Positions 20,551-43,554 of a stretch of DNA of 64,000 bases are shown here, in pieces. Below the pieces are notes generated by a model. The model was not told where the DNA came from, made no database searches, and saw only the letters and a program-made list of their open reading frames with translations. The stretch's first letter is position 1. The number at the start of each line of letters is the position of its first letter. The DNA lies in contig NZ_CP013926.1 of assembly GCF_001562115.1 (NCBI RefSeq), positions 62,001 through 126,000 of the forward strand. The letters are read 5' to 3'. A program made the position numbers and the translations under genes. This stretch comes from Alteromonas stellipolaris. Lineage in GTDB: Bacteria > Pseudomonadota > Gammaproteobacteria > Enterobacterales > Alteromonadaceae.

Positions 20551-20772
<222 letters not shown>

Positions 20773-23038: not shown

Positions 23039-23083
23039 CGGAGGCGAAGGTCACAGGTTCGAATCCTGTCGGGTGCGCCATTT
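23039..23083 (+). repeat. attR-like direct repeat (tRNA-Arg 3' end copy)
   Basis: An exact 45-bp copy of 20604-20648. It ends the remnant element and directly abuts the truncated gpA-like gene. Confidence 0.9.
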
Positions 23084-24979: not shown

Positions 24980-25226
24980 GTTCTACTCAGGTTGGTCGAT
25001 GTAATTCAAAAACTGTTTAACCGCCATTATAAACTCAATTAGCGGTACGTAATCAAAAAGCTTAACAATAAAACCATCGACGCTTGGTGAACATTAAGCT
25101 TAAATTCGGCTCAGCATTTGGCATGTTAGGATGCATTTTTTGTTTTTAAAACGGCACAATTAACTTTTTCTAGAAACTAGTTGTGCTACCGTAATTACCA
25201 TCAATTGCCCTAAATTCTTAAACATT

Positions 25227-25254
25227 TAGCAAGTAGCAAGTAGCAAATAGCAGC
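25227..25254 (+). repeat. Four 7-bp tandem repeats before a start codon
   Basis: TAGCAAG, TAGCAAG, TAGCAAA and TAGCAGC lie head to tail and end at the base before ATG 25255. They occupy the place where a ribosome-binding site would be, and no AGGA-like sequence is seen. Confidence 0.8.
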
Positions 25255-25881
25255 ATGTCAGTAAAGAATTATCAAAAATTCTACGAACCACTAAACGCGG
25301 TACGCTCGGCTGACTTTAACCGCTGTATTTACTGTGGCTGCGAAGCGGCACGCCCCGACTTTATCCCACCCATAAAATTTATTCACGACTGGCGAGACGT
25401 AAACTCAAGTGCTGATTTTATTTGTGTACCCTCATGCAATGAATGCTGCGACCTACTTAAAAATGAAAACAGCGGCACGCTAGAACCCAGAATTACTGTG
25501 TTAAAAAAACTATTGGCAGCAAAATATGAAAAAGCCATTAGAGTGTTTAACCACTGGAGCATGGATGAAATTGAAGAAATGGATACCGCATTTCAAATAA
25601 GCCTTAAAGGCGGCATGCATTTAGGCAAAGAAGCCCTTTCACGGCTTCAATTTGCTGGGTTCGACTATGAAGTAAACGGCAGCATAACGCGGGTAGCCAA
25701 ACCGCAGCGCGAAGTGTTTAAAGTGTTCGATGAAGAATTCGAGAGCTTCAGAGAAGCGTTAGCCTTTGCCAGCGAAACCTACCAAATAAAGAAAAGCCGA
25801 CTAAGCCAACTTTATTATGAGCATGATGAAAGCTTTGATAGGGCGGTTGAGGTTTTTCATGGGTTGGGGAAAAATCAATAG
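25255..25881 (+). CDS. Hypothetical protein with HNH-like zinc cysteines
   Basis: A 208-aa protein of unknown function. Cysteines 24 and 27 (CIYCGC) and 61 and 64 (SCNECC) form two CxxC pairs as in zinc ribbons and HNH endonucleases, but the catalytic His-Asn-His pattern is not evident between them. The C-terminal half is helical and charged. The start is preceded by four heptamer repeats rather than a normal ribosome site. Context is the accessory stretch between nhaC and the defence-like cluster. Confidence 0.65.
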   Translation: MSVKNYQKFYEPLNAVRSADFNRCIYCGCEAARPDFIPPIKFIHDWRDVNSSADFICVPSCNECCDLLKNENSGTLEPRITVLKKLLAAKYEKAIRVFNHWSMDEIEEMDTAFQISLKGGMHLGKEALSRLQFAGFDYEVNGSITRVAKPQREVFKVFDEEFESFREALAFASETYQIKKSRLSQLYYEHDESFDRAVEVFHGLGKNQ

Positions 25882-26276
25882 AGCATATCTGTAGTGACAT
25901 TTCAGGTTAAGCTTCACGATTAGAGATGTCTATTTGATATTCGCCATTACATTAAATTGAACCACTTTGCGCCCAGCTCTCAGAGTTTCTACTATCTTTG
26001 GTAACGACGCAGAGATCTTTCAGTATGTTGATCTTCATATCATCCTCTAATGCGCATCTTAGTATAAATAAAACAAGACAACCGTTGCTCTCGCTATGCT
26101 CAACCGGTTGAGTATCTTAAATATCGATGTATACAACTTTTCGAAGGGCCGCCCAAAAAGCCAAGGTCACAGGTTCGAATCCTATCGGCTGCGACACTTA
26201 AAAAGCTATTGCAGCAAAGCTTCCCATATCCCGTGGTATGCTATTGAAAATTATTTCCTTGGTACATTGTTCGATA
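25882..26276. other. Gene-free stretch with palindrome and tRNA fragment
   Basis: No convincing gene. It holds a 14-bp perfect palindrome CTCAACCGGTTGAG (26099-26112) and, 51 bp later, a degenerate tRNA-Arg 3' end (26163-26196). The rest looks like decayed sequence. It marks the left border of the AT-rich four-gene cluster. Confidence 0.6.
26163..26196 (+). repeat. Degenerate third copy of the tRNA-Arg 3' end
   Basis: Thirty-one of 34 bases match the T-arm, acceptor strand and CCA of the tRNA-Arg at 20569; differences are at 26184, 26189 and 26194. There is no 5' half, so it is not a tRNA gene. It fits an old attachment site left by another integration at the same tRNA. Confidence 0.8.
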
Positions 26277-27920
26277 CTACTTTTGCTTTTGTCGCAACCA
26301 TTCAAAAGAATCTAAACCTACTCTAGCAAGCTGTGCAGCCAAACCATTAACAATAGCTTGAGATATTGTAAATTTGAATTCACCGCACCATTCGTATTTT
26401 TCATTCGCCTCACTTAAAAATTCTGGAGTTTCGTTAGCGTTGATGACTGAAAGTACGGTCTTCTTCTCATCATTAGCTTGGAAACAGATAGACTTTAATT
26501 GTTTAACCGAGGAAACTATTTTTAACTTCAAATGGCCATCCCTTTTTCTCATGACATGAGTAAAATCACCATTACTTAGCCGTGTTTCTATAAAAGTGAA
26601 GCTTTGATTGCCGGTCAATCTGACAGTGTCACATACTGGCTGAATACAAAGATAAAACTTGCTATGCCTACATTTTATCAATGTTCCTTGCTTGAGTACT
26701 GGTGTATGCTTTTTAAGGCTAACAATGTCACGCCTAGTGCTTTCTAAAGAGCACAAATCAAGTAATGGCTCCGTACTGTAATTATCAAAACTCAATTGTA
26801 TTAGAGCTTTGTTAAATGTATCGATCGTTGATGTTTCTTTATTTCCTTTTATATCTAAATCATCTTCTAGGACTGTAATTAAGTCTTCTTCTTTTGAAGC
26901 AGATATAAGCTTTTCCATCGTCTTGTTGTTAAATTCAACCTTTTTTGAACCCATCTTAATTTTGAAACGATTAGCTTTTTGTTTTGGACTCATGTGTTGA
27001 GGCCATGACTTTAATATTTCCTTTGATAAGCTATCTTTTACGATTTGGCTTATTTGTAATTCTGACTTCAACTCTTCTGAAATTAGATCTACAGCATAAT
27101 CAAATGCAACCTCATTTGCTTGTTCGCGCATATCAGGCGAAGAAATTAAACCTAAAACATGTGATAGGTAAGCAGTGTCAAGCTCCTTGTTGAATTTATG
27201 CAACAAATTGTGGGTATTGTCACGAATCGAAGCAATAGAAGATAATGCAGCATTAGATAAAAGGCCTGCTGTTAACTCTGTAAACGAATCAATAAGATAC
27301 TCACATAACTCAATCTCTTGGGTATCACCTTTATTAACTACTTCAATTTTCCAATGTGTTAAGTTAGATAAACCAAAAGTTAAAGTGCACTTAGATACAT
27401 TTGGCTGAAGAGAATTAAGTGACTTTTGAAGTGTATCTACAACCGCGCTCGCTTCTTTTGCGGTATAAATGCAAATTAACCGAGTTCTCCCACCTTCTTT
27501 AATATCAATCTCAGATATATTAAGGATCGTATTTGTTGCAAATTCGCCATCAGGCGCACCTATATCCATTTGCCAATCTAGTATTGTGATATCAGCGTTC
27601 TTAGATGTATTAACAACTGCTTTCAATGAAGATGCGACATCGCCTTCAGGTGCAAAACCACCACATATAATTCCTTTAATCGCAAATTCGTGAGATAAAT
27701 CTTGATAATATAGCTCATGAGAAAGAGCTGGGGTCACTTCCTGTTTATTGCCACCAGTCTCAAATTCACCCAAATCAGCATCATCAGGCTCTATTAATTT
27801 TTCATTGCTCAAATCAGGTCTTGGCTCAAATTTAATATTGTCATCTACTGCTACAACCGATTGTAGAAAGTGCTGTGCAATCTTTTTCGAGTTTTCTTTA
27901 AAACTTAACACTGGTGTCAT
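26277..27920 (-). CDS. Receiver-like protein of the GHKL cluster
   Basis: A 547-aa protein. Its first 160 residues resemble a divergent response-regulator receiver: VVAVDD with the acidic pair at 26-27, a phospho-acceptor candidate in ITILDWQMD (Asp115 or Asp119), and IYTAKEA (151-157) with Thr and Lys in receiver-like positions. A long insertion (about 32-75) separates the acidic pair from the rest. No known output domain was recognised in the remaining 390 residues, which may be the effector. It starts 3 bp after the stop of the 1011-aa GHKL protein, so the two are coupled and probably act as kinase and receiver. Last gene of the operon. Confidence 0.75.
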   Translation of the reverse strand: MTPVLSFKENSKKIAQHFLQSVVAVDDNIKFEPRPDLSNEKLIEPDDADLGEFETGGNKQEVTPALSHELYYQDLSHEFAIKGIICGGFAPEGDVASSLKAVVNTSKNADITILDWQMDIGAPDGEFATNTILNISEIDIKEGGRTRLICIYTAKEASAVVDTLQKSLNSLQPNVSKCTLTFGLSNLTHWKIEVVNKGDTQEIELCEYLIDSFTELTAGLLSNAALSSIASIRDNTHNLLHKFNKELDTAYLSHVLGLISSPDMREQANEVAFDYAVDLISEELKSELQISQIVKDSLSKEILKSWPQHMSPKQKANRFKIKMGSKKVEFNNKTMEKLISASKEEDLITVLEDDLDIKGNKETSTIDTFNKALIQLSFDNYSTEPLLDLCSLESTRRDIVSLKKHTPVLKQGTLIKCRHSKFYLCIQPVCDTVRLTGNQSFTFIETRLSNGDFTHVMRKRDGHLKLKIVSSVKQLKSICFQANDEKKTVLSVINANETPEFLSEANEKYEWCGEFKFTISQAIVNGLAAQLARVGLDSFEWLRQKQK

Positions 27921-27923
27921 CCC

Positions 27924-30900
27924 TTACGCCTCTGCATCGATTACTGCTTGTTCTAGTTTGGGTGCTATAGTAAAGCACGCCCCTTCATTAGGGTTATATG
28001 GAGCTAACGATATTTCAAACCCTTCATCTTCTAGTGTCTTTCTTACTACGTATAAACCCATTCCGCGGCCGCCAGATTTTCGAGAGAAAGCAAATTCGAA
28101 CACATTATCTTTATCTATAGTTGGAATACCAGGGCCTGAATCTTTTACGATAAAACCAGTACTTGTAGCATCTAATGTTATTACTTTTTCCCCACTAGCT
28201 TTGCCAAGCCAAAAAATAGAGTTATCGATTAGGTTTATGATCGCGGGGTATATAGTAGAGGTAAATCCTATAATGCTTTGCTTTAAAAAGTTATCGGTAA
28301 CCTTTAATTGAATTTTTTCATTGTCTAAACGATCCCAGAAAACACTATTAACAAAATCAGATACCGCTTTACCTGTTATAGATACTTTCTTTCTAGTTAA
28401 TCTTCTAGTGAGTGGAGTGAACACTTTAAGGTAACCTTCAAGATGTTCAAAACCGCTCCGAATATCTTCGTATATCAAATTGAGTTTTTCATTTTTATTT
28501 GCCCAGGGTTGCATTTCCTTTAATGCTCGCCTTATACCCAATACATTTCCGCTAAACTCATGGTGTATAATTCCAATCGCCATACCTAAATGGACCATTT
28601 CAGAATTTCGATCATTTACTTCTTTTAGATGTTCATATTCTGACTCAAGTATTTCAGTAAGCTTATTTCCTGCTATTGAATTTTGCTCATTACCTTCTCT
28701 GATTGTCTGAATTTGTTCAGCTATATGTTCTACCCTCTCTAGAACAATATTTGCTGTTTCAGTTATTTTTCCCTCTAGGGAGGCTTTAAGCTCATATAAC
28801 TCATCAGCAGATCTTTCATTAAAGCTTACAGAAGATAGATCATGTTTAACCTGTTCTAGAGTCGTTTTAGCTAATTCTCTATTTCTAGAAATTTCGTCCT
28901 TAGTCCAGCCTTCTAATTCTTCTAGTACTTTATTAGCTTTGTAATAAACCGCATTGAGTTGCTTTTTTTGGAATTCCGTTTGTGAATCAATAGAATCAGT
29001 AAAACGCCTTCGCATACCTGTTCGATTTCCAAATTTGTCCTCAAATACTACTAAGCGTTTTTCTGTTTTTGTCTTTAGTTCATTAATGTTGTATTGAATT
29101 TTATCTTTTTTTACTTTATACAAATCACACAGGTCTGTAAGCGTTTTACCAAATCCTACTCCTGCTGGAAAAGTGATATTGAGATTATTTACTAGTGGTT
29201 TTAGTCCATTTGATAAGATCTCTTGAACTTCAAAAATAAAATCATCGGCAGACTCAGATTGCTTATCAAAATCTTTAAATCTATAATTGATTTTCTCAGA
29301 TATACTTGTTAATCGACTGCTCCAATAGTCATTATCGTAACGTTTGAAAAACACTTCTAGTTGCTGTTGCAGCCTTTTTTTCTTGGTGCTTGTAAGGTTC
29401 TCTCGCTTTTTGAGTAAATCATATGCTTCTTGATGTCTTGACCTTATTTGTAAAAATTGTTCTGATAAGTCACCTTTTTCATTAAAAAAATCGCGTGCTG
29501 CTTGTATAAAGAAGTTCTCTAAAATTGATTTGAATTGTTTATAAGCCTTATTTTCTATAAACCCTTCTCGGCCAGCTTTCTCGTGTAATGCATAATTGTT
29601 TTCTTTAGTTAGCTCGACGCTTCCAAGCATCCTACGATAGGAAAAGAAAGCTTGACCAGTCTTACTTCTTCTTTGCTCAATGTGTAAAAAATCAACATCT
29701 GAATCACCATAAGGAAGAACGCGAATTCCATCTCTATAAATGTACAGCCCACCGATTTTGTTGGTTTTATGGTAAATTTCTTGCCATAAGACATTTGGTA
29801 GTTTTGATTCTCTGGCAGTTCCCATAATGACAGCCAAATTAATTTTAAAATGTCCACAAGTTACAGGCTTGTTAAGTCCTTCAGGCCAAGACAATACATA
29901 TTCTCTTTTTTCTTCACCATAGATAGTTACGGTACCTGTAAACTGACCAAATTCGTTGAATGAGCCTTTGATATGATGGTCAGATTGCTCAAATTCCTGT
30001 GGAGTAAAAAAGATTGATTCACTTATTCTATCGACGACTGAGCCATCTGCTGTGTGGTCTCTAAAACGAGCCAAAATAGGTGGTTTATTATCTTTGTCCA
30101 TTGTATTGGTAAAACCAAGCAAAGCTTTTTCTAAACGAGATGCTTGGTCTGTCGCAGCTCTTGCAGCCAAGTCGCCTTCAACCTCTTCATTTAAGATCTC
30201 ATCTACTGGGGATATGACAAAGTGAGTTCCAAAACCGTCTTCATCTAAATAGAGCTTTCGAGTTGATGTGATACCATCACTTTTTAATTGGTCATCGACT
30301 TTAGCATCAAAAGCTTTCAAGTTTCGATACCAGACTTCAGGATTGAATTCAAAGGAGTCGATCTGATGAACAACAGCGTCAATTTTATCTTGAGATATTT
30401 TATTATTTAATGTTTTTACGTTGTCTTTTGCTTGCGATAACAAATTTAAAAACTGGTCATTTGTTATCATTTTATTATTTCTAATTTCAATTAAAGGGAT
30501 GTCTATATCGCTTAAATCTAGAGCAGGAAGTGAAAATAATGTCCAATTTATAAAGCTCGCAACTAGGGTTGATAAACCATCCTCTCTTTTTGCCCTAGTC
30601 AAAACTAGTACCTGAGGACCTATAGCAGCAATTGATAGTCGGCCTATACCTTTCTCGCCCATAACAGGACGAAGGGCTTTCGACATGTTTGTTGCAGGTA
30701 AAGCAATGCTATTTTCATCAACAAACTTGCTGTCTGTGCCTATTGTTAGCCATCGCTCTTCAAACTCATCACGAGTCATCCCAAGACCATCGTCTCGAAG
30801 AATTAAAAGGTTCCTTTTACGTATGTAATCGACTTCTACATTGTCTGCATACGCATCATGTGCATTCTTAAATAATTCGCTTAAAGCTGTTGGAATACCT

Positions 30901-30959
30901 GCTATTTGCTGCCTTCCTAACATATCCAAAGCTCTTGCTTTTGTTTTAATCTGAGCCAT
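27924..30959 (-). CDS. Dual GHKL ATPase: MutL/HSP90-like N-terminus, histidine-kinase-like C-terminus
   Basis: A 1011-aa protein with two ATP-binding GHKL modules. The N-terminal one has the N-box ELFKNAHDA (28-36), DDGLGM (56-61) and GEKGIGRLS (101-109), as in MutL, HSP90 and MORC ATPases. A long charged, partly coiled-coil centre (about 480-785) leads to a kinase-like end: H-box IIHHEFSG (near 798), N-box NLIDNS (909-914), DSGPGIP (940-946) and GGRGMGL (963-969). No membrane segment is seen, so it is cytoplasmic. Its ATG overlaps the methyltransferase stop by 1 nt, and the receiver-like gene follows. Related GHKL ATPases are known beside restriction-modification genes; the exact mechanism is unknown. 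Confidence 0.85.
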   Translation of the reverse strand: MAQIKTKARALDMLGRQQIAGIPTALSELFKNAHDAYADNVEVDYIRKRNLLILRDDGLGMTRDEFEERWLTIGTDSKFVDENSIALPATNMSKALRPVMGEKGIGRLSIAAIGPQVLVLTRAKREDGLSTLVASFINWTLFSLPALDLSDIDIPLIEIRNNKMITNDQFLNLLSQAKDNVKTLNNKISQDKIDAVVHQIDSFEFNPEVWYRNLKAFDAKVDDQLKSDGITSTRKLYLDEDGFGTHFVISPVDEILNEEVEGDLAARAATDQASRLEKALLGFTNTMDKDNKPPILARFRDHTADGSVVDRISESIFFTPQEFEQSDHHIKGSFNEFGQFTGTVTIYGEEKREYVLSWPEGLNKPVTCGHFKINLAVIMGTARESKLPNVLWQEIYHKTNKIGGLYIYRDGIRVLPYGDSDVDFLHIEQRRSKTGQAFFSYRRMLGSVELTKENNYALHEKAGREGFIENKAYKQFKSILENFFIQAARDFFNEKGDLSEQFLQIRSRHQEAYDLLKKRENLTSTKKKRLQQQLEVFFKRYDNDYWSSRLTSISEKINYRFKDFDKQSESADDFIFEVQEILSNGLKPLVNNLNITFPAGVGFGKTLTDLCDLYKVKKDKIQYNINELKTKTEKRLVVFEDKFGNRTGMRRRFTDSIDSQTEFQKKQLNAVYYKANKVLEELEGWTKDEISRNRELAKTTLEQVKHDLSSVSFNERSADELYELKASLEGKITETANIVLERVEHIAEQIQTIREGNEQNSIAGNKLTEILESEYEHLKEVNDRNSEMVHLGMAIGIIHHEFSGNVLGIRRALKEMQPWANKNEKLNLIYEDIRSGFEHLEGYLKVFTPLTRRLTRKKVSITGKAVSDFVNSVFWDRLDNEKIQLKVTDNFLKQSIIGFTSTIYPAIINLIDNSIFWLGKASGEKVITLDATSTGFIVKDSGPGIPTIDKDNVFEFAFSRKSGGRGMGLYVVRKTLEDEGFEISLAPYNPNEGACFTIAPKLEQAVIDAEA

Positions 30960-32014
30960 TACTCTTGTCCTTCCTGAACGCGATTAAAATGATTTAAAAT
31001 TGCTAAACCAAAATTTCTAGCCAACTCGCAGGGTACGGCATTTCCTATTTGTTTAGCCATGGAAGTAAGTGTACCTGAAAAAATATAGTCGCTTGGAAAT
31101 GTTTGAAGGTTTGCAGCTTCCCTCATGCTTATTGGCCTATTTTGATTTACATCTGGATGTCCAAATCTACCATTAGAGTAACCATTACATCTTGTAGTTA
31201 GTGTAGGTGATGGTTTGTCCCAACTCATCCTCCCATATGTGTCGTAGTGTCCGTCATAATCTTTATGAGCTTTATTTACCAACCTGGTGGGCCAATTCCT
31301 TCTATCACCCCCTTCAGGTGTCAAACTAATTCGTTCAAGATTGATAGAATCTAAATTAGAGCATCTATGAACTGGATCTTCGCCAGATACTTCTCCCGCG
31401 CGAAGTGCTGGTAGCATAAAAATTGCGTCTCTGACTGTAACGTATGGGATACCATTTACACCGTGTGTTTTCTCTGGTTCCTCTATTCTTCCGAGTCTAC
31501 TTGCTAATAGAACCAACCTTTTTCTTTTTTGTGGGACGCCGTATTCTTCGGACTTTGCGATAAATTTTAAGTGTTGGTAGCCGTTTTTTGACAAGAAAGA
31601 TAGAAAGCGACAGAATGGCCCTTCGACATTAGGGTTAACGTTTTGCATTCCTGGTACATTTTCAAGCAATATATATTCAGGATTAAAGGCTAATATAAAC
31701 CGATGTGTTTCATCTAAAAGAGTTCTTCTTATATCAGCATCAGACTTTTTATTGTTTTGATTTGAAAAAGGCTGGCAAGGCGCGCAAGTACATATTAACA
31801 AAGGCTCTTCGGTGATATTGGGAACTTTGGTAACAATATCTTCAACTGTTATATTTCTGACGTCATCTAAAATAAACTGTGCGTCTGGGAAATTGGCTTT
31901 ATAAGTCGAAGCAGCATTCGGTTCGAAATCTATCCCTAATGAGATATTACAACCAGCCTGCTCTAATCCTTTGCTTGCCCCGCCGCAGCCACTAAAAAAG
32001 TCAATTACATTCAA
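30959..32014 (-). CDS. DNA (cytosine-5-)-methyltransferase
   Basis: A 351-aa C5 DNA methyltransferase that uses S-adenosylmethionine. Motifs in order: I DFFSGCGGASKG (residues 5-16), IV with catalytic Cys CAPCQPFS, VI ENVPG, VIII KRKRLVLLAS, a target region around SPTLTTRCNGYSNG, and X QIGNAVP. The recognition sequence cannot be read from this. It lies between the nuclease-helicase and the GHKL gene and probably protects host DNA from the cluster's nuclease. A 242-bp gap upstream could hold its own promoter. Confidence 0.93.
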   Translation of the reverse strand: MNVIDFFSGCGGASKGLEQAGCNISLGIDFEPNAASTYKANFPDAQFILDDVRNITVEDIVTKVPNITEEPLLICTCAPCQPFSNQNNKKSDADIRRTLLDETHRFILAFNPEYILLENVPGMQNVNPNVEGPFCRFLSFLSKNGYQHLKFIAKSEEYGVPQKRKRLVLLASRLGRIEEPEKTHGVNGIPYVTVRDAIFMLPALRAGEVSGEDPVHRCSNLDSINLERISLTPEGGDRRNWPTRLVNKAHKDYDGHYDTYGRMSWDKPSPTLTTRCNGYSNGRFGHPDVNQNRPISMREAANLQTFPSDYIFSGTLTSMAKQIGNAVPCELARNFGLAILNHFNRVQEGQE

Positions 32015-32256
32015 CGTTTATACTCAAAAAACTATAATTATTCTCGTGTAGATGGTATCAGGTTAGTGTTGTATCGTCATTACTGGGTCAGTTCTACGAC
32101 AAAAAGATTATCTATGTAGTGAATACCCTTGCATTAGAAGTTATAGACATAGATAGATGTATTTTCGAAGGTGCGCTCCAGAGTCGCAAAACTAAAGACT
32201 GTAATTTTTCGAGAGCTATACTCTTCTTTTTGTGAAATATAGAAAAATCTCGCAAG

Positions 32257-34836
32257 TTAGATACCTTCATACCAATTATCACCAATCCCACCAGCCTCTA
32301 CATGTTTATTAAAGTAAGCCTCCCCATCACTACGCATCTGCTTCCTTATTAACTCTATATCGCCATTTTCTAGGTTCTCCCATAGCACGGGGTCGAACGC
32401 CAACTTATCTAACTCCTTTGAGTGGTACATGAAGTTTTTGCGTTCAAATTTTTCGAAAGGGTTTTGCAATATACTTTTTGTAATAGCTGGTACATCATCT
32501 AAGTATTCTTCATTGTTCAGCGGGCTATTGGTTTTTTCCGCTTGGCCGTATTTTGTCAACAGCTTTTTATAAAATGATTGATAATCCGCTCTCAGTAGCG
32601 AAAGAGTAACTTCCCCAGTTTTATCAGCATGCTTTAGCATCAGTAGTAGAAATATAATTTTGAACGAAAACGAGTAATCACGTTGTTCTAAAAACTCGAA
32701 AAAATCATCTCTTCGTGTGTCTTCATTACGGTACTTGAGATTTTTCTCCTCGCGTATTTCATCCACTCTACTTTGTTCATAGTAATTGAGCGTATGGCTA
32801 CCAAACGGCAACTGTTTATCTGGTAATAAACTTTGGTTTTTTACCCAAGCTTTAACTGTACCAGTCGATACAAAAAGTTCTCTAGCGAGTTGTTCATCAT
32901 TAATGTAATCACCAAACTCATCTTCAAAGTTAAATAGCTTGATGGGATGAAGTTTGCGCTCGTGTTCGTAAAGGTGATCGAGAATCACTTCTTCGCCTAC
33001 AAACGCCTCGTTTGGATTAAATATGTCAGCAAAGGGCTTATAACCATCAAGATTGAATATACTGTGTAGGCTCCATGGTTGCAGCGCGGGACCATAGCTA
33101 TCTACCACATCTATCGCGTAAAGTGCTTCCTTGCCAGGATGATTACGTGTGCCTCTTCCTAGTTGCTGCATATATAGCACTTTTGACATCGTGGGCCGTG
33201 CCATTACCACAATGGAGGTATTGGGCGCATCCCATCCTTCATTTAATAAATCGCAAGCACATAAAAACCGAACATTACCTTCTTTGTATTTCTTCAATCC
33301 TTCTCTGCTATTTGCAGAAACGCCTTCAGCGCTAATTTTGTGTTTATTTAGAAGCGCAGCTAATCGATTGGCGTGTTTCACGTCAACACAGAAGATAACA
33401 CCTTGCAGCGTCGCTAAAGACTGGCCTGTTACAGCATCTTGTTGAGTAAAGTATTTTGAGAGTACGTCTACAATAAGTTGGTCTCGGGAGGGCAAAATGA
33501 CGCGCTTGTTTAAGTCGCTTTTAACGAACTCTTTTCCGTTGAATCTAACCTGAGAAAAATCAATGTTACTTTCCAAACGAAAAGCGCGAATTGGTGGTAA
33601 TAGCTTTTGTTTAATCGCCTCTTCAAGAGTCATGTTCAATTGATATCGACCGAATATTTCAGCAAGATCTTTTTGGTCGAGTCTTTTATCCGTAGCGGTG
33701 CAACCAAACAACGTTTTTGGATTGAAGTGTTCTAATACTCGTTTGAGGCCTTGTGCAGGGGCATGATGAGCTTCATCCACCACAATATAATCAAAATGAT
33801 CCGTTGAAAGCGAAGCAAATTGTCGTTGGATTGCTTGTGTCGTTTGCACTATTACATCAGCTGATGAGTCCAAAATGTTGGAGGAAACTATGAGGTTGGG
33901 GTTTCGTTCTATGAACCGTGCTTTTGTTTGTTCGCGTAAGTCTTTGAACGGAACAATGACTAACGCTCTATCAGCGTTGCCTAATTTTTTTTGATTGCTG
34001 TGGTCTGCAATAAATACTTCGGTTTTTCCGGTTCCAGTCGGCAGTACTAGCAAAAACGTATTTTTACCCTGCGTTCTGCCATTTTCAATATCTAAAAGCG
34101 CATCTTGCTGGTGTTTGAAAAGTGAAAAACTAATGTTTCTAAATTGGCTTGCTGTTGGCTTACTGCAAAATTTTTCTTCTTCTCCAAAGTAGAGGCGAAT
34201 TTGATCTGCAAACTTCTTCTCATCAGCCATTCCCGCATTAGACCAGCGATATACTTTGATACCGTCTTTCATAAGCGAGTTTTGCTTAAGTAGCTGGGAT
34301 TGATAGCGGCTTTGTCTAATGTGCAGTGGATGGTGAAAGCTTTCACCGTTAAGCTCTATGGCAATTTCGCCTTCAATAGTTTTAAGAACGTAATCCACAT
34401 ATCGGCTTTTACCAAGCAAGTCTACATACTGATATTCTCGCTCTAAAGCATGCAGATATTTTGAACCATAAACCTGCTCAAATAGACTCTCAAAATTGTA
34501 TTCTGGGCGAGTTGGGTCTGTTTCACTAATCTGTCTGTCAGCGCCAAACTGCCGAAAATCATACTCATCAGTACTGTCATTCAATATCGCATCAATTAGC
34601 AATCTATCTTCGTGTGCTTCGCTGTCGATAAATCGGTATAGCCGCTCAAATTTATGCATCAACATGTTTTGCCACGAAGTATATTCGTGGTAGCGATAGC
34701 TGGGTTTATTGGTTCCATACAGTTGCGTATCGATGATGATACCGACTTTTTGAGTGTTATCACTGAAAAGGTAGGAAGTGAATTGAGAATCTATCTGTTG
34801 AAAACCTAGGCTTCTGAGATAGTCTGATAAAGTCAT
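32257..34836 (-). CDS. Nuclease-fused superfamily 2 helicase
   Basis: An 859-aa restriction-type protein. The N-terminal part has a PD-(D/E)XK/Vsr-like pattern: Asp148 in RYVDYVL, then IAIELNGESFHH with Glu161 and His168, where Asn replaces the usual Lys of ExK. The helicase core follows: Walker A LPTGTGKT (265-272), DEAH (354-357), TAT (380-382) and motif VI QQLGRGTR (557-564). A helix-turn-helix-like segment lies at about 645-672. It is the first gene of the minus-strand cluster and the likely effector that translocates on and cuts unmodified DNA. It resembles the R subunit of type I/III systems, but no specificity subunit is present. Confidence 0.85.
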   Translation of the reverse strand: MTLSDYLRSLGFQQIDSQFTSYLFSDNTQKVGIIIDTQLYGTNKPSYRYHEYTSWQNMLMHKFERLYRFIDSEAHEDRLLIDAILNDSTDEYDFRQFGADRQISETDPTRPEYNFESLFEQVYGSKYLHALEREYQYVDLLGKSRYVDYVLKTIEGEIAIELNGESFHHPLHIRQSRYQSQLLKQNSLMKDGIKVYRWSNAGMADEKKFADQIRLYFGEEEKFCSKPTASQFRNISFSLFKHQQDALLDIENGRTQGKNTFLLVLPTGTGKTEVFIADHSNQKKLGNADRALVIVPFKDLREQTKARFIERNPNLIVSSNILDSSADVIVQTTQAIQRQFASLSTDHFDYIVVDEAHHAPAQGLKRVLEHFNPKTLFGCTATDKRLDQKDLAEIFGRYQLNMTLEEAIKQKLLPPIRAFRLESNIDFSQVRFNGKEFVKSDLNKRVILPSRDQLIVDVLSKYFTQQDAVTGQSLATLQGVIFCVDVKHANRLAALLNKHKISAEGVSANSREGLKKYKEGNVRFLCACDLLNEGWDAPNTSIVVMARPTMSKVLYMQQLGRGTRNHPGKEALYAIDVVDSYGPALQPWSLHSIFNLDGYKPFADIFNPNEAFVGEEVILDHLYEHERKLHPIKLFNFEDEFGDYINDEQLARELFVSTGTVKAWVKNQSLLPDKQLPFGSHTLNYYEQSRVDEIREEKNLKYRNEDTRRDDFFEFLEQRDYSFSFKIIFLLLMLKHADKTGEVTLSLLRADYQSFYKKLLTKYGQAEKTNSPLNNEEYLDDVPAITKSILQNPFEKFERKNFMYHSKELDKLAFDPVLWENLENGDIELIRKQMRSDGEAYFNKHVEAGGIGDNWYEGI

Positions 34837-35136
34837 TTAAATCTATCCATGATCGATTCCTTCTTCACGTCGTGTGAACATTGTTGTATCCATCTTCAAA
34901 TCGCTAGAGTTAGCGCACTACAAAAGATACTTTAAATATGAGCATAATGGAGGATTGATTGTCCAGACAAACGTATGAATAGTAGTGATATTTGCTATGT
35001 TAATGTACGCGGCGCTAGTTAGCACACTCGCCGTGAAAACTCTTACCCTACTGCTGACTAGTTATTGTTTGAAAAATATCTTAGCTATTGGGTAGTGACT
35101 GGCTGTTTTTTCTATCTAACACGGCTGGGTTAATCA
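34837..35136. other. Intergenic stretch between defence cluster and permease
   Basis: No gene seen. It must contain the promoter of the minus-strand cluster, but no clear -35/-10 pair was recognised. No further tRNA fragment or inverted repeat that would mark the right border of the island was found. Confidence 0.5.
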
Positions 35137-36837
35137 TCATCCACCAACCCCAACCCCAACCCCAACCCCAACCAACAACACACCCATCCCCCCAGCCACT
35201 ACAGCGAACACGGCCAGTATCAATGACGTGCTTTTTAGTATGTCGCCGTCGCGGTTTTGCAAACCCAGAATAGCGGTAACGGCCACTATGTTATTTATGC
35301 ACACCATGTTGCCCATGGCGGCGCCTACACTTTGCAGTGCCAATATAGTGGTAAGGGGTAATGACAGTTGTTCGGCAATAGTGGTTTGAATACCCGCGAA
35401 GGTTAAATTAGAAATTGTGGCCGACCCTGAAAAGAACGAACCTAGCGCGCCTAAAAGCGGGGCGAAGAAGGTCCAGTTTGCGCCCGTTATTTGTGCCAAG
35501 TGATGACCTATTTGGGCTACCGCTGCGCTGTTTTGGCCAGAACTGTCGCCAAGCATCATCATGTTCACAAAAACAAGCGCGCCTAGCATGGCGAAAAAAG
35601 GTGTGCGCATGCGCGTTAGAGTTTGTTGGCTTGCTGTTTTTAATGAGTTCGAGTCTGATGAATGACGAAATAGCCACAAGGTCGCGCTGCCTGTTACCGC
35701 AAAAGGAATGATAGACGGAATATACAAAACGCTATGTTTCCAAGTTACCGCGGTATCTAAAATGCTGGTTAAGCTGGCCACTAAACTTGTGCTTATGTGA
35801 AAGGTGCCTAAAAAACCTAGGCTAATGTGTAATGCAGGTTCGGTGGCTTGTAAAAGCGCTTTAAGCCCTAGCTCGGGCAGGCGAGTTAATACTAACAGTA
35901 ACACAGTGCCCCACAGCGGGAACGCGGCTTTTATTAACGTTTTCAGTGGTACCGTATTCTCTGGGGTTTGTTCTGGGGGTTGTTTTGGGGAGTGTGCGGT
36001 GGCTGCTGTTCGATTAGCTGCGGGTCGATTTACTGCCGGTTGATTTGTTGTCTCTGTCCCTATTTTATATTTCGCCAGTAACAGGGTAATAACTAAGCCA
36101 ATTAACCCGCCTAGTAACGAAGGAAATTCCACACCAAAATAACTTAGCCCCAAATAGGGCAGGGTGCATGCGCAGGTGGAAAGTAGAATAAAAAGCAGGT
36201 TCTTTTTAATATCGGCGGTATCGCTCACTACTAATCGTAATGCCAATATCACAATGATAGGTGCGGCTATGGTGTTAATAAGGGCCGCTTGCTGGGCTAT
36301 TTCTAGCACGCTTTGTTGAGGTAGTTCCAGTAGCGATAAGCCAAACCATACGGGTGTGCCCATGGCTCCAAAAGTAACGGGAATGGTATTAAGCACTAAA
36401 CAGAACAGTGCCACTCGTATCGCGGGAAAACCAAGGCTGTAAAGTATGGGGGCGGCAATGGCGGCAGGTGTACCAAAGCCACTGGCACCTTCAATTAGAA
36501 ACATAAACGCCCAGCCCACAATCATTAGCTGGGCTACGGGGTTTGCACTTACGCCGTCTAGCGCTTTGCGTAAAATAGCTAATGCACCGGTAATTTCCAT
36601 GCATTTAAAAAGGAATATAGCGCCTGCAATAATAGACAGCGGGGTGAGTGCTAGCAATGCGCCACTTATTACATTGGCATTCACTAACCTTGCATCTTGC
36701 TTAAATACTAATAGCACCACCATATAAGCAACTACAGCGCTTAAAGGTAAAGCTTTGCTAGATGGCATAGGGTTCTTTTTTACCATTAAGGTAATAAGCA
36801 AAATAAGAGGTAGGTAAGAGAACGCTAAATTCATCAT
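35137..36837 (-). CDS. L-lactate permease family transporter (LctP type)
   Basis: A 566-aa inner-membrane carrier of the LctP/GlcA family (lactate or glycolate, proton symport). Family features include FLIEGASGFGTPAAIAAPIL and FNMVFIA-like late segments, with some twelve hydrophobic helices. Two odd parts stand out: a Pro/Ala/Thr-rich cytoplasmic linker (NQPAVNRPAANRTAATAHS and on, about residues 270-305) and a Gly-Val repeat tail coded by hexamer repeats. It follows the betaine-pathway genes on the same strand, 103 bp after etfB. Its substrate here is unknown. Confidence 0.85.
   Translation of the reverse strand: MMNLAFSYLPLILLITLMVKKNPMPSSKALPLSAVVAYMVVLLVFKQDARLVNANVISGALLALTPLSIIAGAIFLFKCMEITGALAILRKALDGVSANPVAQLMIVGWAFMFLIEGASGFGTPAAIAAPILYSLGFPAIRVALFCLVLNTIPVTFGAMGTPVWFGLSLLELPQQSVLEIAQQAALINTIAAPIIVILALRLVVSDTADIKKNLLFILLSTCACTLPYLGLSYFGVEFPSLLGGLIGLVITLLLAKYKIGTETTNQPAVNRPAANRTAATAHSPKQPPEQTPENTVPLKTLIKAAFPLWGTVLLLVLTRLPELGLKALLQATEPALHISLGFLGTFHISTSLVASLTSILDTAVTWKHSVLYIPSIIPFAVTGSATLWLFRHSSDSNSLKTASQQTLTRMRTPFFAMLGALVFVNMMMLGDSSGQNSAAVAQIGHHLAQITGANWTFFAPLLGALGSFFSGSATISNLTFAGIQTTIAEQLSLPLTTILALQSVGAAMGNMVCINNIVAVTAILGLQNRDGDILKSTSLILAVFAVVAGGMGVLLVGVGVGVGVGG
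35144..35173. repeat. AACCCC hexamer repeat in the permease 3' end
   Basis: Four full AACCCC units from 35146 to 35169 plus flanking partial units. On the coding strand they encode an alternating Gly-Val tail just before the stop. A unit of 6 bp means gain or loss keeps the reading frame. Confidence 0.85.
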
Positions 36838-36940
36838 AGTGAGAAGGTTTCGCTTAGTGTAAGCATCTTTATACTTTGCTAGTTGCCTATTAACTAGTCA
36901 AATTATTAGCACATATGAGTTACAGCGCAATTAAATAGTT

Positions 36941-37789
36941 TTACAACACCTTCTCATCTTTCAATATTTTAAAAATAGCGTCGGCTGCTTCTTGGTTGTT
37001 ATAAATGACCTTTCCTGCGCCGCCTTGGGCTTTGGCTGTGGCGGCTTTGAATCTATCAGCTGCAGTTTTGGCTTTAATTATTTTAAGCCGTTTAGGGCGG
37101 GGTTGAGCTGGGGTTATTTTCCATTCGGCTTGCAAGGTTTCGCAGTTTGTTAAATCAGGTGAAATAGATGCGCTACCCGCCGAATCTGTATGGGCAGCGA
37201 TGGTATCTATTACAGTAATTTTACCTCGCATGGCTGCACCAAAAGCACTTTGTCGTGGCGCTTGCGCGGCCATATCGACAGTTGCGACAAAAGGCAGTTT
37301 TACGCTTATTTTTCTGCGCTGGCCTCTTGGTAGGGCTTGCAATAGTTCTGCGTATCCGGCTGTTTTATTAATGCATAAAATTTCGGTTATGCTGGGTACT
37401 AATGCCATGCCTAATTTTTCAGATAATACATAAGGTGTCATGCCTGACGATTCGCCGGTTTCGGCGCGTATTCCGGTAAGTAGAATATCGGGGATATTTT
37501 TATCAAAAGTGTTAATTAACGCGGTAAGGCTATCGTTTTCATGCGGTATGTTTAAAAGCTTAATTTCGGGTAAGCCCATACCTAAATAGTCTTTTAATAC
37601 GGTATTGGTTTGCACATTGTTTGCAGCGCCTGCGTGCATCACCTGTAGGTTGGTATCAGGTACATTCAGCCCAATTTCTAACGCTCTAGCGTCTTGTTCT
37701 GCTCGCCGTGGGCGCTTTGATAGCGGGTGCTCTCCTACCGACACTAATACGGTTATATTCACGTTATCTTCAACGGTCTGTTTATGCAT
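36941..37789 (-). CDS. etfB: Electron transfer flavoprotein beta subunit (dimethylglycine pathway)
   Basis: A 282-aa ETF beta-type subunit. Features are ITVLVSVGEHP at the N-terminus, DILLTGIRAETGESSGMTPYVLSEKLG and a C-terminal segment ending AADAIFKILKDEKVL. It pairs with the alpha subunit directly upstream (8-nt overlap) and, with DgcB, probably carries electrons from dimethylglycine oxidation to the respiratory chain. The sequence departs from housekeeping EtfB, as expected for a dedicated paralogue. Confidence 0.87.
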   Translation of the reverse strand: MHKQTVEDNVNITVLVSVGEHPLSKRPRRAEQDARALEIGLNVPDTNLQVMHAGAANNVQTNTVLKDYLGMGLPEIKLLNIPHENDSLTALINTFDKNIPDILLTGIRAETGESSGMTPYVLSEKLGMALVPSITEILCINKTAGYAELLQALPRGQRRKISVKLPFVATVDMAAQAPRQSAFGAAMRGKITVIDTIAAHTDSAGSASISPDLTNCETLQAEWKITPAQPRPKRLKIIKAKTAADRFKAATAKAQGGAGKVIYNNQEAADAIFKILKDEKVL

Positions 37790-39269
37790 GCTGAGCCTCC
37801 GGTGCGTTCTTGGCCGTTGCTCGATATGGGGTTAACCCTGAAGTATCGCTGGTGGCGTTATTGTTTTTCTGATCGCGTTTCTGATTGCCTTTGAGTGCGC
37901 TTTTTTGCTCATGTACCAAATCGAGTAACGCGGCTAATATTGCGCTGCTATCCCCTATGGCGCTTAAATCGGCGCGTTTAACCATGTCGCAGCTATCATC
38001 GGTATTAATGGCAATGACCTTTTCACACTGTGCTATGCCTTGCATGTGCTGAATTGCGCCAGATATACCTACCGCAATGTACACCTTTGCTGTAACCCAG
38101 GTGCCGGTTGCGCCTACTTGTCGTTCACGTGGCATAAAGCCATCGTCTACCGCTACACGGCTTGCGCCTTCGGTAGCGCCCAATATAGCGGCTGCGTGGT
38201 GAAATTGATCCCAATCGGTAATGCCATTACCGCCAGATAAAATAAACCCAGCTTCGGCCAAATTAATATCGTTAGGGTTCACGCTTTCATTGCCTAGGTC
38301 TGTAATTTTTTGTTCGTAGGTATTTGTTATCGCTTGTTCTAGTGTTTGATCAGATGCCTGTTTAGGAAGCGGAATAAGTGGCTGCTCAAGCACTTTGCAT
38401 TCGTGCCTAGTATCACTCACCGGCTCATTGCATTCTTCTAATGCCAGCATAATGTTTGTAATTGGGCGGGTAATGTCGGTTTTACCTGCCGAGCCTCGGC
38501 ATACTATTTGGTTACCATTAACTTTCCACACATTGCTGGCCACCGTGGTATTAAGCTTTGCGGCTAGTCGGCGGCCTAAATCTGCTCCGCCATGAATGCT
38601 ATCTGGAAATAAAATATGTTTAGGATTTATCTGGTTTACTAGCTTGTATAAATCGGCGCACCGCTTTTCAGGGTTGTATTGCTGATATTCATTGCCTTCA
38701 AAATTTACCAGCCTGTCTATGCCGGCGGTGTCTAGCTTTTCTTCGGTAATGGTATCGAAAAATACCGCCACTACTGCGCCTGTTCTTTCGCCTGGGTCTA
38801 CACCTACACCTGCATCTACACCTGCACCTGTTCGTGCTTCGTTGCCTCCAGTACCTTTATCAAAAGCTGCGTCATTTTCGATAGTCGCAGGCTGGGTTGC
38901 CAATTTATGGGCTAAGCCTAAGATATCTCTGTCGTGGCTAGATAATCGGCCTGAAACGCCGTCTACCACCACTAGAATATAAAAATCTGGGTTAGCTACT
39001 TTGTGTAGCGGTAGCACAATCTCTTCTTGGGCTGCTGACTTACTACCTTGAGCCGATTGTCTGTTTAGCTGTTTGAAAGAGCCCGCAGCGCCCGACCTAT
39101 CAATTCGCTTTAACCCATTCGGGCCAATAAAGCCGATGGCGTGTACGTTTTTACGCAATAAACCGGTAGGGCCACGTTGAACTAGCTGGCCTTCAGGTAC
39201 ATGTAGTGGATGTAGCCTGTTTCGGGCAATCCATTGGGCTCGTGGGTCGCGACGAAATAGGTTAGACAT
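37782..39269 (-). CDS. etfA: Electron transfer flavoprotein alpha subunit (dimethylglycine pathway)
   Basis: A 495-aa ETF alpha subunit, longer than the usual 310-aa housekeeping form. The FAD-binding C-terminal domain is clear: GFMPRERQVGATGTWV, YIAVGISGAIQHMQGI and IAINTDDSCDM. The extra N-terminal region (about 110 aa, starting MSNLFRRDPRAQWIARNRLHPLH) is typical of the betaine-locus version. An Ala/Gly/Val/Asp-rich insertion near residues 145-175 is coded by imperfect ACACCT-type repeats (38795-38835). Overlaps of 8 nt with dgcB and etfB show a tight operon. Confidence 0.88.
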   Translation of the reverse strand: MSNLFRRDPRAQWIARNRLHPLHVPEGQLVQRGPTGLLRKNVHAIGFIGPNGLKRIDRSGAAGSFKQLNRQSAQGSKSAAQEEIVLPLHKVANPDFYILVVVDGVSGRLSSHDRDILGLAHKLATQPATIENDAAFDKGTGGNEARTGAGVDAGVGVDPGERTGAVVAVFFDTITEEKLDTAGIDRLVNFEGNEYQQYNPEKRCADLYKLVNQINPKHILFPDSIHGGADLGRRLAAKLNTTVASNVWKVNGNQIVCRGSAGKTDITRPITNIMLALEECNEPVSDTRHECKVLEQPLIPLPKQASDQTLEQAITNTYEQKITDLGNESVNPNDINLAEAGFILSGGNGITDWDQFHHAAAILGATEGASRVAVDDGFMPRERQVGATGTWVTAKVYIAVGISGAIQHMQGIAQCEKVIAINTDDSCDMVKRADLSAIGDSSAILAALLDLVHEQKSALKGNQKRDQKNNNATSDTSGLTPYRATAKNAPEAQHA

Positions 39270-41319
39270 CGGCAGTACTCGCTATTTCGCCTGAAGCTTT
39301 CGCATCTGCCGCTAGTGCCGCAGTGGGTTTAAGGTTTACGGCTGGCGCTTGAAAATCAACAGCAGTTTCGGCTACTAAAGCCTGTGTAACTAAAGTCTTT
39401 GTATCTAAAAGCTGCGTATCTAAAACAAGCGCATCTAACATTAACTCGGCAATGTCTTTTACCTGTGGGCGTGGCTCTACAACCCCCTCTAGCATTAAGC
39501 TACATTGTGGGCAGCCCACTGCGATAATGTCTGCGTTAGTTGCTTTTGCGTCTTCCATTCGCATATCGGGAATGCGCTGCGTGCCGGGTATATCGGTAAC
39601 GGGGGCGCCGCCACCGCCGCCGCAACAGCGGGCTTTTGTTTTGCTTCGCTCCATTTCCTTTATGTTAATACCCATCGCTTCAAGTAAGTATCTAGGGGCG
39701 TCGTATTCGCCGTTGTATCGTCCTAAATAGCATGGGTCGTGGTAGGTAAGCGATAAGGCTTTGTCGGTGCTTAAGCGTAGCTTTTGGCTTTTCACCAAAT
39801 CTGCGAAAAAACCGGTGTGGTGATACACATCGTAATGGCCGCCAAAATCACTATATTCATTTTTAAGGCAATGAAAGGCGTGGGGGTCGGCGGTAACAAT
39901 ATGCTTAAATTGATATTGCGCCATGGTGGCAATATTGGTTTTCGCCAAACGCTGGAAGGTGGCTTCATCGCCTAGTCTACGTGCGGGATCGCCACTGTCG
40001 CATTCGCTATCGCCCAATACTGCAAAATCTACGTTAGCAGCGCGCAATAAACTTACCATGGCACGCAAGGTACGTTGGTTTCGCATATCGAAAGCGGCAT
40101 CGCCTATCCACAACAATACGTCTGCTTTATCTACATGTTGGCCAAATACGGGTAAATTCTGATCTGCTGCCCAGTTCATTCGGCTGTTAGGGGCATAGCC
40201 GTTGGGATTGTCGGTGGTTTTTAAGTTCTCGAGCAATTCAGCACCTTTGCCCGGTGTTTGGCCTTTTTCTAAAGTTTCGAAGCGGCGCATATCAACAATG
40301 GCGTCTACATGTTCAATCATCATGGGGCATTCTTGAACACAGGCGCGGCAGGTGGTGCAAGACCACACGGTTTCAGAAGGTACTAGCACGTTCACTATAG
40401 GAATAATTGCGCCGCCTTTATGAGTTCCTGCCTGCACGCCAGGGTAGGGGCTGCCAGCAAACTGCGCATCGCTACCTCCGGCCATGCCAACTACCATGTC
40501 TTGAATAAGCTTTTTAGGGTTAAGTGGTTGGCCTGCTGCAAAGGCAGGGCAGGCTTTTTCGCATCGCCCGCATTCTACGCATGCGTCGAAACTAAGTAGC
40601 TGGTTCCATTTAAAGTCTTCAGGCTTTTCTACGCCTAGCTTTGCTGTTTCAAGGTTAATGCTTTTAAGGCCTGTTGAGCGCCCGCCGCCAAAACGTTCTT
40701 GCCTGCGGTGAAAGCCTAAATGCAGCGCGCCAGCAAAGGCATGTTTCATGGGCCCGCCCCAGGCCATGCCTAAATACATTTCGCCCACGCCCCAAGTTAT
40801 GCCAAGCAATAACACCACGGCTAACAACCAACCGCCTGTGTTTGCGGGTAACAGGCCGGTGGCGGGTAAACTTAAAATAAAGAAGCTACTTGCATAGGTT
40901 AACAAGCTATAGGGTAGGCGCGACCACGGCCCTTTAGACAAATTAGGCGGTGGGTTCCTACGCCGTAAAAATACAAAAACTGCGCCAATAAACATAAGGG
41001 CGCTACTGGCCAGCAAGGCATAGTTTAAAACAGAGCCTGTTATGCCGAATAAGTAAATGCTTAGCACTAAAATTGTCGTTAAAACAAAGCCGCCCGCGGT
41101 GGCCACGTGGGTATTTGAAATGTATTTGTCGCTAGCAACTACGTGATGAAGGTCTACCAAATAGCGCCTTGGAATGGAAAGTAAGCCAGCCCAATGCACA
41201 GTAGAAGCCTGACCTTGTCGCCATAAACGCACGCGGCGTCCCGCGCCAATTAGCGTAAGCAGTACCGACACTAACAACAGCACAAATAATACAGCCGGTA
41301 AAAAATCATCAGCAAACAT
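39262..41319 (-). CDS. dgcB: DgcB, membrane Fe-S electron carrier of dimethylglycine demethylation
   Basis: A 685-aa protein. Its N-terminal 200 residues hold several TM helices. Two 4Fe-4S ferredoxin-type clusters follow, CVECGRCEKACP (247-258) and CTTCRACVQECP (321-332), then a CCG-type domain with ARCCGGGGGAP near 573. It resembles heterodisulfide-reductase-like ETF oxidoreductases and with DgcA and the ETF forms the dimethylglycine demethylase chain to quinone. The last 60 residues are a low-complexity Leu/Thr/Ala repeat tail (LVLDTQLLDTKTLVTQALV), likely an expansion. Confidence 0.9.
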   Translation of the reverse strand: MFADDFLPAVLFVLLLVSVLLTLIGAGRRVRLWRQGQASTVHWAGLLSIPRRYLVDLHHVVASDKYISNTHVATAGGFVLTTILVLSIYLFGITGSVLNYALLASSALMFIGAVFVFLRRRNPPPNLSKGPWSRLPYSLLTYASSFFILSLPATGLLPANTGGWLLAVVLLLGITWGVGEMYLGMAWGGPMKHAFAGALHLGFHRRQERFGGGRSTGLKSINLETAKLGVEKPEDFKWNQLLSFDACVECGRCEKACPAFAAGQPLNPKKLIQDMVVGMAGGSDAQFAGSPYPGVQAGTHKGGAIIPIVNVLVPSETVWSCTTCRACVQECPMMIEHVDAIVDMRRFETLEKGQTPGKGAELLENLKTTDNPNGYAPNSRMNWAADQNLPVFGQHVDKADVLLWIGDAAFDMRNQRTLRAMVSLLRAANVDFAVLGDSECDSGDPARRLGDEATFQRLAKTNIATMAQYQFKHIVTADPHAFHCLKNEYSDFGGHYDVYHHTGFFADLVKSQKLRLSTDKALSLTYHDPCYLGRYNGEYDAPRYLLEAMGINIKEMERSKTKARCCGGGGGAPVTDIPGTQRIPDMRMEDAKATNADIIAVGCPQCSLMLEGVVEPRPQVKDIAELMLDALVLDTQLLDTKTLVTQALVAETAVDFQAPAVNLKPTAALAADAKASGEIASTADV

Positions 41320-41436
41320 GACAACGCCTATGGTGGTTCGATTTCTCGTTTTTTATCGCCAAACACTTAGCAGGGTTGGCGCCGTATATGGTCAAAGAGG
41401 AAAAGAAGGCGAAGTAAGCCAAGCTTTCCTCTGATA

Positions 41437-43497: not shown

Positions 43498-43554
43498 GGT
43501 GTTCCCTCAAGAAATGCGTATTGCGACTGCGTGTTTCAATCAATATGGTTGTGG

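Follow-up and report, generated by a model that had tools for sequence, protein, structure and literature searches.

A three-gene element on the minus strand of Alteromonas stellipolaris DNA (contig NZ_CP013926.1, positions 62,001 to 126,000; these 64,000 nucleotides are the window below) joins a C5-cytosine DNA methyltransferase (methylase), a sensor kinase with two GHKL ATPase domains and a Response_reg_2 regulator. As far as sequence relatives can tell, the system is these three genes, and it is old and widespread. Our reading, to which we give a probability of roughly 0.45, is that the trio is a restriction-modification (RM)-like unit in which a two-component relay has taken the place of the nuclease output: the methylase would set the self-mark, the kinase would act as the sensor and the regulator would provide the output. 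The trigger, the target and the anti-phage role of the trio are ones that we infer. The parts of the unit are as follows (window coordinates; aa, amino acids).

30959..32014, minus strand: C5-cytosine DNA methyltransferase that opens the trio, 351 aa from a TTG start (PF00145, 184 bits; TIGR00675, 148 bits)
27924..30959, minus strand: sensor kinase, 1011 aa (HATPase_c_3, HEF_HK and HATPase_c)
26277..27920, minus strand: regulator, 547 aa (Response_reg_2, 92 bits against a cut-off of 27)
27324..27869, minus strand: receiver domain of the regulator, about residues 18–199, with Asp115 as phospho-acceptor
26277..27323, minus strand: output half of the regulator, residues 200–547, with a helical part, a predicted MazF/CcdB-like barrel (about 404–534) and a conserved tail

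The methylase and kinase genes overlap by 1 nt (30959) and a gap of 3 bp (27921–27923) separates kinase and regulator. An earlier reading of the letters alone (the sequence-only reading) had placed four minus-strand open reading frames (ORFs) in an AT-rich stretch, the fourth encoding a nuclease-helicase; all four are present at those positions and with that spacing, and G+C is 34–42% in the 1-kb bins from 26001 to 35000 against 43–50% in those from 36001 to 44000. The nearest named protein relatives come from Alteromonas (85%) and Aliiglaciecola (93%). A promoter and terminator scan was uninformative, the sites being rarer than in shuffled sequence.

A linked trio across bacteria and archaea

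How constant is the company that the kinase keeps? When species genomes were scanned with the kinase alignment, at least 546 confirmed relatives were found, the best 80 of which are our related loci (81 with the window); conservation counts refer to the 68 of these 81 that have full-length genes. The alignments comprise the window regulator with 69 of 120 listed relatives (A1), the window kinase with 67 of 120 (A2) and 56 of 66 next-downstream genes (A3); A5 omitted L037 and L038. Record titles of the 80 loci include Gammaproteobacteria, Bacteroidetes, Acidobacteria, Chloroflexi and archaea. In 80 of the 81 loci the gene immediately after the kinase encodes the regulator, the remaining locus being cut off by its contig end, and a C5 methylase stands directly upstream of the kinase on the same strand in 71/81, with no more than 50 bp between them in 64 of these 71. 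The methylase stands downstream on the other strand in 5/81, and 2/81 loci lie at contig edges, one of which (L074) retains a partial methylase. The rule failed in three of the 81: in L003 the C5 methylase match is downstream and weaker, and the contigs of L037 and L071 end 74 bases past the regulator and just past the kinase, respectively. Since methylase, kinase and regulator recur together across phyla, their linkage is more than chance. The restriction-like unit with two-component-like parts that had been proposed from the letters is supported.

The spread of the trio is patchy. In the order of the host, the kinase is present in 9 of 394 genomes (E 1e-60 or better), and the nine kinase places outside the window's own genome all adjoin a methylase match and an ORF of 542–634 aa, which matches the regulator profile at E 1e-5 in three cases and does not in six. 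The trio of E. coli UTI89 was matched in 196 of 5426 E. coli genomes, always at 99% identity or more, and 194 of them keep 80% or more of the three genes together at a single place; its neighbours in UTI89 are transposase and conjugation remnants. More broadly, the kinase search found 3176 proteins at E 0.001 or better, whose architecture is not uniform. Among plasmids, 101 records match the kinase and only three are covered over at least 80%, at 27–29% identity; among phages, the kinase found three weak records, none covered to 80%, and the regulator found none. Beside methylases of the same type, L205 and L208 have GHKL proteins (with frames of 760 and 751 aa) whose matches to the kinase profile fall into separate blocks; they are perhaps a shorter relative of the trio system.

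The pair of kinase and regulator has been described before. In the available passages of Bellieny-Rabelo et al. 2021 (PMC8011034), HEF_HK and Response_reg_2 are linked in 91.6% of 644 regions, and the association with an upstream C5 methylase and the group 1 architecture had likewise been reported, from sequence only. The window locus shares the domains, the architecture and the upstream C5 methylase of those elements. Because pair, methylase link and architecture were published in 2021, we regard the locus as one more example of a kind that had been described, though it is uncharacterised. The same passages report no conserved target-recognition domain (TRD), no BbrUII/HgiDII likeness and no fold for the output half, unlike the present analysis, and the passages available of PMC12137116, PMC12839542 and PMC5867850 do not mention the trio. 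PMC10663231 has a single mention of HEF_HK. The sequence-only reading could match the cluster by eye to no named anti-phage system, and this agrees with PADLOC-DB 2.0.0, a library of systems described up to 2023, in which the kinase matches two type II restriction endonuclease (REase) models, through its GHKL part only, and the regulator matches none of the families.

The authors of PMC8011034 suggest, in the passages available, signalling that controls restriction systems, and the genes around the trio bear on this proposal. A Vsr-like repair nuclease lies at most a few genes away from the trio in 28 of the 80 loci, in varying position and strand; in L009, L012 and L070 it stands between methylase and kinase, and its identity was confirmed by Pfam for the 10 next-downstream copies scanned. 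Four of 56 next-downstream genes scanned match HNH_2, and a homologous AAA ATPase of about 600 aa adjoins the regulator in eight loci (L041, L045, L050, L051, L053, L063, L067 and L075); the L041 copy, the only one to be scanned by itself, matches the HEC-04 and AriA-like models of PADLOC. That some loci adjoin HNH_2 nucleases, AAA ATPases or Vsr genes is what one would see if kinase and regulator were a two-component control of the expression or activity of nearby, variable restriction genes. However, the loci share no nuclease gene, the Vsr-like gene being the most frequent addition, and the window regulator has no DNA-binding family match in Pfam. The UTI89 locus also speaks against such control: apart from the trio, no restriction gene is annotated in the 18.7 kb around it, the 2 kb on either side are free of annotated nucleases and helicases, and the nearest annotated nuclease is the CdiA effector 2.7 kb upstream. 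We therefore consider control of neighbouring restriction genes unlikely.

The methylase and its restriction relatives

The sequence-only reading had cast the methyltransferase as the marker of self. This is probable. The gene encodes an active-looking C5 methylase with intact motifs: PCQ and ENV are present in 68/68 loci. We compared its TRD (residues 180–261) with its core (1–174 and 290–335), both delimited by alignment to the window protein, and used 27 C5 methylases as controls; these came from 30 loci, after the loss of one in which the motif rule found no ORF and of two with overlong sequences. Among the 68 trio methylases, pairwise identity averages 0.420 in the core and 0.385 in the TRD; among the 27 controls it averages 0.394 and 0.107. 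When only pairs with a core identity of 0.28–0.45 are considered, TRD identity is 0.322 in the trio versus 0.077 in the controls. This conservation suggests that trio methylases throughout the family recognise a single target or a small set of related targets. A further C5 methylase-like frame, with an internal stop, is found on the other contig of the window's genome (G000:C2:33609-34385).

Which target might this be? The window methylase is 37% identical, TRD included, to the methylase beside an REase of genome G467 that is a bona fide member of the BbrUII/HgiDII family (719 bits against a cut-off of 550, NF050001). Mean TRD identity to the trio is 0.37 for the BbrUII/HgiDII-type methylase (L222) and 0.06–0.20 for 22 of the 27 controls. 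M.HgiDII recognises GTCGAC according to the passage available of PMC5867850, and by analogy the target of the trio methylase is probably GTCGAC or close to it.

The kinship extends to the partner protein. Kinase residues 8–114 align to the GHKL domain of the BbrUII/HgiDII REase (hhalign 97.0%; BLASTP 29%, 2e-12), and against the NF050001 REase model the kinase scores 74 bits, through its GHKL part only, and does not reach the cut-off of 550. Both the BbrUII/HgiDII RM system (GTCGAC) and the trio thus combine C5 methylases homologous through the TRD with a partner that begins with a GHKL domain. The partners then differ: the REase continues into a nuclease-like C-terminus, in which an ELK motif can be seen by eye (L222), whereas the trio kinase continues into a histidine-kinase core and leaves the output to a second protein. 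On account of this kinship of methylase and GHKL domain, the trio looks like the BbrUII/HgiDII plan with a kinase core in place of the nuclease.

Kinase, receiver and output domain in a proposed relay

The kinase is laid out as a MutL/MORC-like GHKL match (24–137), a linker or coiled region, HEF_HK (791–856, with His800) and HATPase_c (903–1003). HEF_HK scores 87.5 bits (cut-off 24.1), and HATPase_c_3 (62.8) and HATPase_c (60.7) are both above their cut-offs. Across 68 loci the phospho-histidine, the phospho-aspartate and most ATP-site residues are invariant, which is new here. Indeed, E28, N32, D56, G101, G104 and G106 of the N-terminal GHKL site are identical in 68/68 loci, as are H800, N909, N913 and the G2-box residues G964, G966 and G968. 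In the receiver, D26 and D115 are found in 68/68 loci, K197 in 67, T153 in 65 and D27 in 62. The distance matrices of the C-terminal part of the kinase and the receiver correlate at 0.56, and methylase couplings range from 0.18 to 0.44; none of 500 permutations reached the observed value for any of the four pairs, in a comparison uncorrected for shared host descent. These values fit a joint inheritance of kinase and regulator, with the methylase more loosely coupled.

Foldseek searches with a predicted model of the output domain retrieved MazF/CcdB-type toxin folds (best E-value 0.0099), and its predicted fold is accordingly MazF/CcdB-like. The domain would resemble MazF, PemK and CcdB toxins in this predicted fold, and it differs from them in being fused to a receiver and in having no sequence similarity that we could find. 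When the full-length regulator model was used, receiver matches alone stood out, the rest being flavodoxins and unrelated chains, and a library of viral structures gave no convincing match to the output half (best E 0.12). The domain carries a set of near-invariant residues (Cys425, Cys430, Asp431, Arg434, Trp511, Lys516, Arg533, Glu540 and Arg543).

Such a set of Cys, Asp, Arg, Trp, Lys and Glu residues is also what an unrecognised nuclease might present, and the trio could then itself cut DNA in a type II-like RM fashion, with the C-terminal half of the regulator as the nuclease and the kinase as its licence. The near-universal C5 methylase partner, the kinship of that methylase with the BbrUII/HgiDII type and the Vsr-like repair gene near 28/80 loci, as expected with widespread 5-methylcytosine, would all agree with this. 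Nevertheless, neither kinase nor regulator of the window has a nuclease family match in Pfam, and the predicted output fold matches MazF/CcdB-type toxins and not a restriction nuclease, so that we consider cutting by the trio itself improbable.

In the restriction-derived relay that we prefer, the methylase would mark one conserved sequence of the host genome as self, and the N-terminal MORC/MutL-like ATPase of the kinase would be an ATP-gated sensor of unmarked incoming DNA. The C-terminal ATPase would then autophosphorylate His800, and the phosphate would pass from His800 to Asp115 of the regulator. The phosphorylated regulator would free its output domain, which might act on nucleic acid, or on an enzyme of nucleic acid, so that phage growth or the cell is stopped. 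Parts of this scheme have parallels. Kinase and receiver proteins of Detocs serve anti-phage defence rather than ordinary gene regulation, as would those of the trio; Detocs is not known to have a DNA methylase, and its sensor and effector domains are other than those of the trio. MutL/MORC-like N-terminal GHKL ATPases beside restriction genes are a feature that the trio shares with the paraMORC ATPases of restriction loci, reportedly treated by Iyer and colleagues in 2008, a work that both PMC8011034 and PMC12137116 cite; paraMORC systems have a fused nuclease, and the trio a predicted phosphorelay output. In VcSduA, which joins a GHKL domain to a Shedu nuclease, mutation of the GHKL domain abolished defence, as stated in the passage available of PMC12137116.

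Several observations weigh against the relay reading. Asp940, in the G1 box of the C-terminal ATPase, is the canonical Asp in the window and Asn in 32/68 loci; half of these (16/32) have Glu at 944, about two thirds are Bacteroidota or archaeal records, and nucleotide use by the C-terminal ATPase may differ there. The homology of kinase and REase, as far as it is clear, is confined to about 107 residues of the GHKL domain, so that a shared DNA recognition is at most conjectural. The methylase type is wider than the trio, because five of the 27 controls (L189, L194, L197, L198 and L199) resemble trio methylases, with TRD identities of 0.25–0.33 and up to 319 bits against the trio profile, and because the Druantia DruM model is the second-best PADLOC match of the window methylase (267 bits). 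Distances among methylases are only weakly related to those among output domains (Spearman 0.18) or among N-terminal kinase halves (0.33), a coupling that allows exchange of parts and disfavours strict co-evolution of methylase and output. The MazF/CcdB-like assignment comes from structure prediction, and sequence comparison was negative throughout, whether by hhalign (with 15 column-shuffled controls and a reversed one), by a Pfam scan or by hmmsearch against PDB sequences: hhalign against a 19-sequence PemK alignment gave 0.4%, inside the 0.0–2.1% of the column-shuffled controls, the window output domain retrieved only RecJ_OB (0.034) and no PemK (PF02452) from Pfam at E up to 1, and PemK was not among the 25 of 31 Pfam families listed for 74 output-domain relatives. 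The aligned output domains have no obvious counterpart of the MazF catalytic Arg and Thr, and an RNase activity is therefore doubtful. Finally, the full-text literature search found a single paper on the kinase–regulator pair, PMC8011034, and no functional study of it.

With these points in mind, the most specific form of the relay reading can be advanced only tentatively, and we think it rather doubtful: a methylation-gated, phosphorelay-switched and probably abortive immunity, with a MORC-like sensor, a receiver-gated effector of MazF/CcdB fold in exchange for the nuclease, and a target fixed across bacteria and archaea.

The island, its helicase and the meaning of the trio

The trio lies in an island with further features.

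25868..35142: island, with approximate bounds; a sister genome (G401) keeps the flanks and has other genes in between
32257..34836, minus strand: nuclease-like/SF2 (superfamily 2) helicase, 859 aa, island neighbour judged to lie outside the unit (ResIII, 107 bits)
26155..26199, plus strand: att-like repeat close to the island's left edge, a degenerate copy of the tRNA-Arg 3′ end that is 80% identical over 45 nt, with an exact 21-nt core

Does the helicase belong to the system? Its gene has the same strand and the same AT-rich island and lies 242 bp upstream of the methylase, and a DUF2726 match ahead of the helicase part stays below the cut-off (16.1 bits against 24.7, Pfam). The sequence-only reading had made this nuclease-helicase the cutter, with the kinase–regulator pair sensing or licensing its action. 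Yet the co-occurrence it expected of four genes holds for three: the trio is kept together across the 80 related loci, and no helicase ortholog is found among the ORFs of the DNA available for them (phmmer, E 1e-5); this DNA reaches 5 kb or more beyond the kinase on the upstream side in 59 loci, on the downstream side in 55 and on both sides in 46. One generic helicase match occurs among them (L002, 121 bits against 1964 for self), in a partial frame more than 7 kb from the kinase, and unrelated helicases are near some trios (Pfam helicase domains in L046 and L057). Around the trio of E. coli UTI89, no helicase is annotated in 18.7 kb. In the order, some match to the helicase exists in 69/394 genomes, and matches above 900 bits that include the N-terminal side in only 5/394; helicase and kinase share a single genome of the 394, the window's own. 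In 19 kb from each of the other four genomes with a full-length helicase, there is no methylase or regulator match, and one generic 29-bit match to the kinase profile occurs in L123. Directly upstream of the helicase relative, all four loci (L122, L123, L124 and L125) carry instead homologues of one small gene (about 200 aa, methyltransferase-like by motif), which the window helicase lacks. The helicase and this small gene are possibly a two-gene system of their own, and the window helicase is probably a separate passenger and not a trio member. A four-gene system with the helicase as effector is thus, in our view, very improbable.

BLASTN of the G401 region (L235) matches window 25133–25867 at 88.2% and 35143–36930 at 88.8%, and in its slot (L235:3380-7786) stand an SF2 helicase of 1098 aa and an Mrr-like nuclease of 252 aa, each of which matches restriction-type models of PADLOC; the helicase is PLD-like by eye and scores 380 bits to a type IV REase model. 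In the sister genome G646 (L236:2955-11366), the genes after lctP have a metabolic look by eye: a glycosidase-like gene, a transporter, a TonB receptor and an AraC-like regulator. The slot is therefore variable and not reserved for defence. This bears on a further possibility, namely that the trio is an epigenetic or DNA-repair signalling device and not defence, in which the methylase would set a mark and the kinase would report the state of the DNA to a housekeeping response. A site that is not defence-only would suit such a device, as would a TRD conserved across phyla, unlike that of control methylases, the MORC/MutL-like ATPase and the Vsr-like gene near 28/80 loci. A mobile module, defensive or selfish, accords better with the patchy spread of the trio (9/394 genomes of the order, 196/5426 of E. 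coli) and with the restriction-type genes that occupy the slot in G401, and we regard a housekeeping role as quite remote.

Copies of the tRNA-Arg 3′ end occur in the window as direct repeats at 20604–20648, 23039–23083 and 26155–26199, three observed against 0.00 expected. Over their 45 nt the first two do not differ, and the small element between them carries a GPA-like phage replication fragment and a protein with a SEC-C motif. A 208-aa ORF (25255–25881) with an HNH-like Cys/His pattern by eye has no Pfam, NCBIfam or PADLOC match, and it was rejected as a cutter because it is also flank DNA, 88% identical in the island-less G401.

Besides the invariant relay residues, what the present analysis adds to the published pair is a conserved TRD with BbrUII/HgiDII likeness, a predicted MazF/CcdB-like output and the reading of the trio as a restriction-derived relay. 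If this reading is true, methylation would tell self from non-self by way of a phosphorelay rather than by cutting, and the fields of restriction, two-component signalling and toxin effectors would be joined. It would also give the HEF_HK/Response_reg_2 proteins a concrete job, and the role of bacterial MORC-like ATPases would become directly testable with a three-gene cassette.

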